64,000 nucleotides of DNA from Natrinema sp. DC36. Its GTDB lineage: Archaea > Halobacteriota > Halobacteria > Halobacteriales > Natrialbaceae. The translations under genes were made by a program, and so were the position numbers. Positions within the stretch are counted from its first letter, which is position 1. The number at the start of each line of letters is the position of its first letter. This document shows positions 45,997 through 49,317 of this stretch, piece after piece. A model generated the notes under the pieces. It was not told the DNA's origin. It searched no databases and saw only the letters and a list, made by a program, of their open reading frames with translations. The stretch covers positions 3,038,001 through 3,102,000 of the forward strand of contig NZ_CP084472.1 in NCBI RefSeq assembly GCF_020405225.1, written 5' to 3'.

Positions 45997-46306
45997 ACCC
46001 ACCCCCGGCGATCACCGCCACGTAAATCGATCGCGCCGTCCGCGGAGAGTTGCGGACCGTTCGCCGATGTTCCGATCAGCTTTTCGCTCCGCTACAAGTC
46101 AATTAAATATAATTTATGTTTATTTGAGCGTTAGTTCGGGCAAACAAAATACCGGGAATAATGTCTGTAGAACTGATTCTCAAGGGATAGTGTATGACTA
46201 TCATTCGCGACAATCAGTTGAATCGATACATTCAATTGGGGCGGGTAAACATTGTTAAAGAAGACATCGGGCAGCATCGCGCTGCCCGACGGCTCAACGA
46301 GACACT
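45997..46306. other. AT-rich intergenic region before the transducer-opsin operon
   Basis: This 310-nt gap holds no gene. About 46070-46260 is unusually AT-rich for this chromosome (AATTAAATATAATTTATGTT). It also holds a short inverted pair TTGAAT/ATTCAA (about 46210-46227). A 9-bp perfect hairpin TCGGGCAGC/GCTGCCCGA (46267-46275 with 46281-46289) ends 17 nt before the transducer ATG. The region probably contains the operon promoter. Confidence 0.55.
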
Positions 46307-48556
46307 ATGGCATTCGAGGACTATCTCCCTGATCGGCTCAGAGAAACGTACAGTGTAAAGATCGGTCTCATATTCTTGCTGGTCGTCGTTATGACGGTAC
46401 TGGTTTCCGCGCTCTTTTTGGGCCACGTCTCCGGTACGGTCGGCCCGGCGGCGGAAGACCACTTCAGCGATCGAACGGCGGACCGAGGCGACGTCGCAGC
46501 GGCCTGGCTCGAGGCGAACGCCGAAACGGCGAACGGGCTGGCCGCGGATGCGACCGTTCAGGAAGGGACCAACGCTGAAATCAGCGAACGGCTCGCGACG
46601 GCCCAGTCGACGCGCGGGGATCGAATCAGCGAAATTCACTATCTCGACGGCGACGGCGAGGTACTCGCGAGCAGTGCGGACGGCGCGGTCGGCGAGAACT
46701 TCTTCGAAACGGCCGGCGTCGAGGGTGCCACCGACGGACCCAGCGCCGCCCACGACGCGGTCGCGAGCGACGAATCGGTGCTCTCGTTCGTCGCCGCGGT
46801 CGACGGCGAATCGGACCGTTACGTCGCCGTTTCCGCCCCCGTGAGCGCGTTCGGCTCGACCCTCGAGACCGCAGACGACCGGCGGACGATCGTCACCGAC
46901 GCGAACGGCGAGCCGATCGCGGCGGTCGGCGAGGCGGCGACGGTCGGCGACGACGCCGTCCTCGACGCCGCTTCGCCGGACGGAGACGGCGTCTCGACCG
47001 GGACCCCCGAGGACGCCGAGACGGAGTTCGCGGCCACGTCGGCGACGATCGACGTCGGCGGCGAATCGCTGACGGTCACGAGCTACGATACCGCGGCGGC
47101 CGTCTACGGCCCGCAGCGGACCGCGACGTCGTCGCTGGTCGCCTTGCTGCTGGTCGTCATCCTCCACCTCGGCCTCGTCGGGGTCGTCCTCGGCGGGAAC
47201 ATCTCGCTGAACCTCCGGCAGCTCGCCGGCAAAGCCGAACGGATGGGTGACGGCGACCTCGAGGTCGGTTTCGAGACCGACCGGATCGACGAGGTCGGAT
47301 CGCTCTACGGCTCCTTTGCGTCGATGCGAGATTCGCTTCGGGAGACGCTATCGGACCTCGAAGACCAGCGCGAACGCGCCCGCGAAGCGCAACGGAGGAC
47401 CGAAGAGCGAAACCGCGAGCTCGAGGCCGAAGCCGAGCGCTACAGCGAGGTCATGGCGTCGTGTGCCGACGGTGACCTCCAGCGGCGTCTCGAGCCCGAG
47501 ACGGACCACGAGGCGATGGTCTCGATCGCCGAGGCGTTCAACGAGATGATCGCCGATCTGGAGGAGACGGTCGCCCAGGTCAAGACGATCTCCGCGGAGG
47601 TCGCGCGGACGAGTACGGAGGTCCAGACCAGCTCCGACGAGATCCGGCGGGCGAGCGAAGAGGTCAGCTCGTCGGTCCAGGAAATCTCCGACGGCTCCGC
47701 GTCGCAGGCCGAGGACCTGTCGATGGCGTCGACCGAGGTCAAGGAGATGTCCGCGACCGTCGAGGAGGTCGCCGCCGCGACGAGCACCATCGCCGAACAA
47801 TCGAGTCAGGTCGACGAACTGGCGACCGACGGCCAGCGGGCGGCCACCGAGACGACGGCGGAGATGCACGCGGCCAGCGAACAGACGGAAGCCGTCGCCG
47901 AGACGATCCGATCGCTGGACGAGGAGGCCGAGCAGATTCAGGAGATCGTCGAGCTGATCGACGAGATCGCCGGCCAGACCAATATGCTCGCGTTGAACGC
48001 GGCCATCGAGTCCGCGCGATCCGAAAGCGCCTCGAGCGATAGCGGCGGCTTCCAGGCCGTCGCAGACGAGGTCAAGGAACTCGCAGCCGAGACTCAGACG
48101 GCGGTCGACGATGTCGAAACTATGATCGAATCGATACAGCAGCGCGCGACGAAGAGTGCCACGCAGATCGAGGCGGCCGAATCGACGATCGGATCGGCGA
48201 CCGAACAGGTCGACTCGCTCTCGAACAGACTCGACCGGATCGCGACGGAGATCGAACAGGTGACGATCGGCGTCCAGGAGATCGATCAGGCGACCGACGA
48301 ACAGGCGGGATCCGCCGGGGAGTTGGCGACGATCGTCCAGGACGTCGCGAGCGTCGCCGACGAGACGACCTCGCAGGCCCAGCAGGTCGCCGCGGCCGCC
48401 GAAGAGACGACCGCGACGATCACCGACGTCTCGGCCGAGGCGACGCGGCTCGACGAACGGGCGACGAACCTCGCCGACGCCGTCGACGAGTTCACCGTTT
48501 CCTCGGGGGCCGATCCGACCGTGACCCCGGCGGGACAGGGAGGTGACAGCCGATGA
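46307..48556 (+). CDS. HtrII-like halobacterial transducer (methyl-accepting)
   Basis: This 749-aa membrane receptor signals to the CheA kinase. TM1 is about residues 17-42. A large extracytoplasmic domain spans about 43-273. TM2 is about 275-302, with LHLGLVGVVLGGNISLNLRQLAGKAERMGDGDLEV, very close to NpHtrII around TM2/HAMP1. A second HAMP-like segment reads AERYSEVMASCADGDLQRRLEPETDHEAM. The long signalling coiled coil has tip EIAGQTNMLALNAAIES (from about 553). After the tip the normal ARAGE..GF stretch reads ARSESASSDSGGFQAVADEVKELA, longer than usual. The last codons overlap the opsin-like ATG (ATGA), the standard htr-sop order. The external domain could bind a ligand. Confidence 0.93.
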   Translation: MAFEDYLPDRLRETYSVKIGLIFLLVVVMTVLVSALFLGHVSGTVGPAAEDHFSDRTADRGDVAAAWLEANAETANGLAADATVQEGTNAEISERLATAQSTRGDRISEIHYLDGDGEVLASSADGAVGENFFETAGVEGATDGPSAAHDAVASDESVLSFVAAVDGESDRYVAVSAPVSAFGSTLETADDRRTIVTDANGEPIAAVGEAATVGDDAVLDAASPDGDGVSTGTPEDAETEFAATSATIDVGGESLTVTSYDTAAAVYGPQRTATSSLVALLLVVILHLGLVGVVLGGNISLNLRQLAGKAERMGDGDLEVGFETDRIDEVGSLYGSFASMRDSLRETLSDLEDQRERAREAQRRTEERNRELEAEAERYSEVMASCADGDLQRRLEPETDHEAMVSIAEAFNEMIADLEETVAQVKTISAEVARTSTEVQTSSDEIRRASEEVSSSVQEISDGSASQAEDLSMASTEVKEMSATVEEVAAATSTIAEQSSQVDELATDGQRAATETTAEMHAASEQTEAVAETIRSLDEEAEQIQEIVELIDEIAGQTNMLALNAAIESARSESASSDSGGFQAVADEVKELAAETQTAVDDVETMIESIQQRATKSATQIEAAESTIGSATEQVDSLSNRLDRIATEIEQVTIGVQEIDQATDEQAGSAGELATIVQDVASVADETTSQAQQVAAAAEETTATITDVSAEATRLDERATNLADAVDEFTVSSGADPTVTPAGQGGDSR

Positions 48557-49317
48557 TCCCCGAACTCCAACTCTATCGGATCGCCTTCTACGCGATGGTC
48601 GCCGCGACAGTCGGCTTCCTCGTCTGGATCGCACGAATGCCGGCCGGGAAACGACGGTACTACCTGCCGGTCCCGATCATCTGCGGGACGCTCGCGCTCG
48701 CCAACTTCGGAATGTCGATCGAACTGTTCAGAATCACGACGGCGGGAGGCGATCCGATTCCGATGACCCGGTACGTCGACTACACGATCGTGACGCCGAT
48801 CATGGTCGTCGTCGCCGGGCTGGTCGCCGGCGCGACACGACGACAACTGGCTGCAGCCGCCGTCCTGAGCGTGATGTGGGTCGGTTCGACGGCCGTCCGC
48901 TATTTCCTCGAGCCCCCGTTGAACGCGGCGGCCGGGATCGTCACGATCGTCTCCCTCGTGGCGATCGTTTACCTGATGGTGTGGCCGCTCACGAAGCGCT
49001 CCGCATCCCGAAGCGGCGAGCGCGTCCTGCTCTACGGGAAGCTCCGGAACTTGCTCCTGTTGCTCTGGGTGTTCTATCTGATCATGGGGTTCGTCTCGCG
49101 ACAGGGCCTCGGACTGCTCGACGCGTTCGGCGGTATCTTCGTTGCCTCCTACCTCGACATCCTCGCCCGGATCGGGTTCGGCGTACTGGTGTTACGAGCG
49201 ACCAACGCCACCGATCAGGTGATCGAGAGTCTCAGATCGTCGAATGCGGGTGACGACGGCTCGGACGGCGTCACGCTCGAGAGATCCGACGACACAGCGG
49301 TCGACCCGGCCGACTAA
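48553..49317 (+). CDS. Opsin-like 7TM protein lacking the retinal lysine
   Basis: This 254-aa protein aligns with sensory rhodopsin II along all seven helices: KRRYYLPVPIICGTLALANF (helix B), RYVDYTIVTP (helix C; R73, D76), LRNLLLLLWVFY (helix F; W172, Y175) and YLDILARIGFG (helix G; Y200, D202). The residue equal to the Schiff-base Lys (K205 of Natronomonas SRII) is R206, codon CGG at 49168-49170. Other pocket positions also differ: Trp76 to Y77, Pro175 to L176, Trp178 to G179. A covalent retinal is therefore not expected. It overlaps the transducer by 4 nt. It may sense something else for the transducer, or be a structural partner. Confidence 0.9.
   Translation: MIPELQLYRIAFYAMVAATVGFLVWIARMPAGKRRYYLPVPIICGTLALANFGMSIELFRITTAGGDPIPMTRYVDYTIVTPIMVVVAGLVAGATRRQLAAAAVLSVMWVGSTAVRYFLEPPLNAAAGIVTIVSLVAIVYLMVWPLTKRSASRSGERVLLYGKLRNLLLLLWVFYLIMGFVSRQGLGLLDAFGGIFVASYLDILARIGFGVLVLRATNATDQVIESLRSSNAGDDGSDGVTLERSDDTAVDPAD

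Follow-up and report, generated by a model that had tools for sequence, protein, structure and literature searches.

We found that two overlapping genes of Natrinema sp. DC36 pair an HtrII-like transducer with an opsin that has lost the retinal lysine, and that the pair is intact in all 24 genomes in which we compared it. The reading that we favor, to which we give about an even chance, is that the two genes encode a retinal-free complex of the sensory rhodopsin II (SRII)-HtrII type, in which a dCache chemoreceptor would have the opsin as a permanent subunit in the membrane. The unit lies on the forward strand of the window, by which we mean the whole stretch of 64,000 nucleotides that was analysed. 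The transducer gene htr (46307-48556; 749 residues) was identified by Pfam, with HAMP (E 1.6e-10) and MCPsignal (E 5.4e-30) matches, by alignment to NpHtrII, and by its orthologues. The gene for the lysine-less opsin, or opsin-related protein (ORP), spans 48553-49317 (254 residues) and was identified by alignment and by a match to Bac_rhodopsin (PF01036, E 7.4e-20). The genes share the four nucleotides ATGA at 48553-48556, of which TGA ends htr and ATG begins the opsin. This overlap had been read from the window alone in an initial annotation, together with a gene order like that of classical htrII-sopII operons; the order holds, transducer first and opsin second, and the overlap is identical in 24/24 orthologous pairs. 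Because the overlap and the residues described below both recur in these 24 pairs, a chance origin of either is excluded.

To follow the pair across genomes, we searched 149 genomes and obtained a strong transducer match in 20, the window's own included. These were the same 20 genomes that carried an orthologous opsin, with the two genes adjacent. Four pairs from a wider draw brought the number to 24; they come from Natrinema, Haloterrigena, a third genus of their family, and a metagenome-assembled genome (MAG) from a different family. All 24 pairs are intact and keep the same overlap, at opsin identities down to ~36-40%. The initial annotation had named random loss or frameshifting of the opsin in homologous pairs as the observation that would speak against it; among the 24 genomes with the pair we found no frameshifted opsin, no lost opsin, and no orphan orthologous transducer. 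No relatives were found in the viral and plasmid collections. By the Nei-Gojobori method, the opsin had a dN/dS of 0.15-0.44, the extracellular sensor domain of the transducer one of 0.16-0.46, and the HAMP-to-signalling region one of 0.04-0.19. We conclude that the opsin is under purifying selection of about the strength that acts on the sensor domain.

Co-evolution of the two proteins, which the initial annotation had put forward as a check, gave no usable support when we compared their trees. Within Natrinema the two trees conflict significantly (AU p 0.0025 and 0.0004), which leaves the co-evolution argument weaker than hoped. The incongruence suggests that Natrinema species have swapped partners without losing the pair, and such exchange would speak for a generic, conserved interface and not for a private one. 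Other arrangements were seen among more distant lysine-less opsins. Those with His at the retinal position (L117, L141, L142, L143, and L144, from Halorientalis and relatives) precede their transducer, so that the order is reversed and the pair is adjacent. At four loci with ORPs of the published group B (L054, L064, L066, and L167) one transducer is flanked by two ORP genes, and possibly two opsins serve one transducer there. The MAG QS_1_68_20 (L051, G097 contig 14) has a second lysine-less opsin, with Val at position 205, and no transducer in the 6.5 kb read. Some group B ORPs likewise had no adjoining transducer in the stretch that we read, as Becker et al. also report for some ORPs (PMC4915679), and it follows that an ORP need not act through a transducer.

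We examined the retinal site of the opsin by alignment, in which NpSRII numbering equals the window numbering minus one (K205 is Arg206, Tyr199 is Tyr200, and Asp75 is Asp76). The helix-G lysine that binds retinal in NpSRII is replaced by Arg206 (codon CGG, 49168-49170, forward strand), with Arg in 23/24 orthologues and Thr in one, while Asp202, Tyr200, Arg73, and Asp76 are kept. The solved structures nearest to the opsin are those of deltarhodopsin and N. pharaonis SRII. The pocket for the retinal ring is rebuilt (NpSRII numbering): Trp178 is Gly in 24/24 orthologues, Val108 is Trp in 23/24, and position 127 is mostly small or polar; Tyr174 is kept. An AlphaFold2 model of the opsin was poor (mean pLDDT 57), with the pocket and a salt bridge unreadable, and its top Foldseek match was still SRII. 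We also asked whether the charges at positions 75 and 205 are coupled among ORPs, and rejected the idea: an acid at 75 occurs in 23/23 Arg-type rows of the window clade and in 0/38 Leu/Phe/Val/Met-type rows, a contrast that is striking by count but not significant, with only 2-3 independent events.

The genomic context of the opsin agrees with the loss of the retinal site. No second opsin was found in the window's genome, and a search for the retinal-forming genes brp/blh (PF15461) that matched 72 of the 149 genomes, our positive control, found none there. None of the 12 genomes with this opsin alone (G000, G009, G010, G014, G015, G018, G022, G027, G055, G059, G075, and G087) has brp/blh, whereas all seven with this opsin plus a lysine opsin do (G003, G006, G012, G017, G020, G023, and G028), counts that come from related genomes and are not independent events. 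Retinal synthesis thus tracks the lysine opsins and not this opsin. With these results, the opsin is not expected to bind retinal or to be photoactive.

The initial annotation had suggested that the pair could be previously undescribed, which does not hold. The class, its HAMP/MCP linkage, and the non-light hypothesis were published in 2016: Becker et al. name lysine-less haloarchaeal opsins beside HAMP/MCP transducers opsin-related proteins, describe an Arg substitution in one ORP group, and propose taxis to non-light stimuli (PMC4915679). In that survey, ORPs made up nearly 30% of haloarchaeal opsins, Haloterrigena ORPs already stood in the tree, two assayed ORPs showed no absorption with retinal, and models predicted an extracellular pocket (PMC4915679). 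No stimulus of an ORP is known in the literature that we searched. A tree of 85 opsins, inferred with columns 75 and 205 left out, has a 100/100 branch with all lysine opsins to one side of it; the window clade, among the lysine-less rows, forms its own 100/99 group, with group B and the one row of group A nearby. A further lysine-less type, with His at 205, occurs in Halorientalis, Natronosalvus, and relatives. The window opsin is a type-1 opsin homologue that lacks the helix-G lysine and groups with the ORPs apart from the lysine opsins; an SRII is defined by that lysine, where this protein has Arg206. Because the defining ORP features that we tested are present, and Haloterrigena ORPs are in the 2016 tree, we count the window pair as a well-supported further member of the published class.

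Like the ORPs of Becker et al. (PMC4915679), members of the window clade are lysine-less, belong to a lineage apart, are usually linked to a transducer, carry Tyr199 and Asp189, and occur in brp-less genomes too. The residue pattern differs from both published groups (NpSRII numbering throughout). Group A is described as having Arg205, Asp76, Leu174, and Ala178, with Arg72 not kept, and group B as having a hydrophobic residue at 205, Leu174, and Gly178, with Tyr51 and Arg72 kept (PMC4915679). The window clade has Arg205, Arg72, Asp/Glu75, Tyr76, Tyr174, Gly178, and Trp108. The window opsin therefore agrees with group A at Arg205 and differs at Tyr76, Tyr174, and Gly178; it agrees with group B at Gly178 and Arg72 and differs at Arg205, Tyr174, and Asn51. 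Judged by the residues as published, and not by group sequences, the clade fits neither group and looks like a third ORP subgroup. To our knowledge, and relative to the main text of Becker et al., what we add is the extent to which the pair is retained, the brp/blh correlation within one clade, the pattern at transducer position 74, the dCache-like domain, and a third active-site pattern.

We asked whether the surface by which SRII binds HtrII is retained. The transducer has TM1 at residues ~17-40 (46355-46426), with His40 at the position of NpHtrII Glu43, and TM2 at residues 268-294 (47108-47188), both placed on the forward strand by alignment to 2f95_B. Among solved structures its TM2/HAMP region is nearest NpHtrII (2f95_B, E 2.6e-26; residues 268-370 ungapped), as the initial annotation had judged. 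The His that it had noted at the position of NpHtrII Asn74 is likewise borne out as His287 (47165-47167, by the same alignment), with the refinement that the residue is lineage-specific: 16/24 orthologues, from Natrinema and the MAG, have His, and 8/24 have Asn as in NpHtrII. We place most weight on the comparison of this position with opsin-less transducers, since Asn or His occupies it in 24/24 paired transducers and in 0/20 generic HAMP transducers without an opsin; an apparent exception among the latter, L212, adjoins a lysine opsin. Transducers of lysine opsins have Asn, Ser, or Gly there, so position 74 alone is not decisive. With an HtrII-like TM2/HAMP and Asn or an equivalent donor at 74, the protein is, by sequence, an HtrII-type transducer.

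The opposing positions of the opsin are kept as well. In SRII-HtrII, hydrogen bonds join Tyr199 to Asn74 and Thr189 to Glu43 and Ser62, and these two SRII residues, introduced into bacteriorhodopsin or halorhodopsin, confer HtrII binding (PMC3274258). The Tyr199 equivalent is present in 24/24 orthologues and in 70/70 lysine-less opsins, and in no lysine pump, where Val, Ala, Met, or Ile is found. Opsin position 189 is Asp in 23/24 orthologues, and the orthologous transducers have His or Tyr at position 43 and Ser or Ala at position 62. The kept contact positions are those that decide SRII-HtrII binding (PMC3274258), which counts for an SRII-like docking. Counting against it, the window opsin has Arg at the position of NpSRII Asp214, for which a contact with HtrII Lys21 has been proposed (PMC5292967). 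The initial annotation had proposed that coupling was retained despite the loss of the chromophore site; with 24/24 intact pairs, conserved contact positions, and no brp/blh found in the genome, this is a reasonable reading and is now better supported.

The transducer carries ~220 residues between TM1 and TM2 that are absent from NpHtrII. An AlphaFold2 model of residues 44-265 (46436-47101) was confident (mean pLDDT 84.5) and shows a long N-terminal helix and two PAS-like subdomains; on this model the domain is dCache-like. Foldseek matched it to the dCache domains of KinD, McpB, CtaA, and PctA/PctB, and Pfam gave a sub-threshold dCache_1 match in the orthologue L045 only (E 2e-5). Amino-acid sensors of the dCache_1AA type have an Arg126/Trp128/Tyr129-type motif in PctA numbering (PMC10104139); an inspection of the sequence by eye found no R-x-W-Y string in residues 44-265. 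TM2 is followed by a HAMP domain with a GDGDLE patch (PF00672; residues 295-346, 47189-47344) and an MCP signalling domain (PF00015; residues 506-683, 47822-48355) in which the signalling tip EIAGQTNMLALNAAIESAR (47963-48019) is intact, all on the forward strand. The window's genome has cheW and archaellin genes, and two MCP genes were detected by a loose first-pass search that may undercount them. The sole other MCP gene detected (G000:C1:2686453-2688726) is 36% identical to the transducer; two MCPs are few for a motile haloarchaeon.

We also compared the DNA upstream of htr. A 13-mer, CGATACATTCAAT, lies ~82 nt upstream of the htr start (46224-46236, forward strand), recurs with 0-2 mismatches in 22/24 orthologues at about -75 to -83, and in an extended pattern occurs a single time in the 5.1-Mb genome. 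It is probably a gene-specific promoter or regulator site. Just 5' of the htr start, the window also has an inverted repeat, CGGGCAGC...GCTGCCCG (46268-46288), and similar hairpins fold in many, not all, orthologues.

Taken together, these results are consistent with a two-gene operon that would encode a retinal-free descendant of the SRII-HtrII complex; the physical complex, the salt bridge, the ligand as stimulus, and the direction of output are parts of this proposal that we infer. The opsin, with its rebuilt retinal pocket, should be incapable of forming a Schiff base, and its helices F and G would dock on TM1 and TM2 of the transducer through Tyr200 to His/Asn287 and Asp190 to His40/Ser275. 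Arg206 could stand in for the protonated Schiff base, facing Asp76 and Asp202, and so keep the opsin in a resting, salt-bridged state; SRII signals constitutively once the salt bridge between its Schiff base and Asp is broken (Spudich 1997, as cited in PMC5292967). The extracellular dCache-like domain of the transducer itself would be the point of entry for the stimulus, most likely a small ligand, and the opsin, as an obligate membrane subunit, would stabilise the complex and set its output, which HAMP and the signalling tip would relay to CheW/CheA and then to the archaellum. Adjacency of the pair even where gene order is reversed, in the His-type relatives, counts for this proposal. The incongruent trees, the Arg in place of Asp214, the transducer-less group B ORPs, and the poor opsin model count against it.

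The opsin could instead be the sensor itself, responding in a GPCR-like manner to a small ligand, pH, membrane voltage, or osmotic or thermal stress and driving the transducer in the way of SRII, with the dCache-like domain secondary. Strong conservation across the clade of the opsin core and of the cytoplasmic half of helix F (GERVLLYGKLRN) would suit such a role, as would the extracellular pocket that the models of Becker et al. predict in ORPs (PMC4915679) and the group B triples, in which two ORPs around one transducer suggest an ORP input of its own. The transducer, however, already holds a large sensor domain that is predicted to be well folded, and we regard this alternative as somewhat unlikely. 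A reading with two inputs to one complex, where the opsin, locked at rest by an Arg206-Asp76 salt bridge, would act as a non-light receptor and share the transducer with a dCache ligand sensor, seems to us fairly unlikely. Quite unlikely is a role for the opsin as an assembly or stability factor of the transducer that takes no part in signal transfer: obligate pairing, translational coupling, and a conserved docking surface would suit a structural partner, and partner interchange within Natrinema fits a generic interface, yet the residues kept in the interior, off the transducer face (Arg73, Asp/Glu76, Asp202, Arg206, Trp109, and Gly179), suggest that the interior is constrained.

Two further possibilities meet stronger objections. 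Light sensing through non-covalent retinal or another chromophore is very improbable given the rebuilt ring pocket, the lack of brp/blh in genomes that hold no second opsin, and the two assayed ORPs without absorption, even though lysine-less opsins can bind retinal analogues (cited by Becker et al., PMC4915679) and Tyr174 and the Asp75/Asp201 positions are kept (NpSRII numbering). Decay of the opsin into a remnant that a functional transducer carries along would fit the opsin's dN/dS, which lies above that of the HAMP-to-signalling region, and is nonetheless extremely improbable with 24/24 genes intact, many invariant sites down to ~36-40% identity, and dN/dS well below one. If the opsin turns out to sense something other than light, or to be a subunit that the receptor cannot do without, then a seven-helix opsin fold signals without a chromophore. 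The window's genome, in which we found only two MCP genes and neither a second opsin nor a retinal-forming gene, is favorable for finding an ORP stimulus, because photoreceptors or many other receptors should not hide the phenotype of a deletion there.

Among known systems, bacterial Rh-noK and the freshwater FArhodopsins are likewise related to microbial rhodopsins and lack the retinal lysine, although they form separate lineages, have no chemotaxis transducer partner, and lie beside a proton-pump or flotillin gene (PMC10308929). SRII-HtrII of N. pharaonis shares with the window pair its gene order, the TM2/HAMP region, the pairing of Tyr199 with position 74, the GDGD patch, and the signalling domain. 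The window pair differs in lacking the retinal lysine, in its rebuilt pocket, and in having no retinal synthesis gene found in its genome; in addition, its transducer has a large extracellular domain, and its opsin does not keep the Asp214 contact. HtrII of Halobacterium salinarum has an opsin partner that is photoactive, whereas the window opsin is not expected to be, and, as both a phototransducer and a serine receptor, it is likewise an opsin transducer with a chemoreceptor function (PMC3274258).
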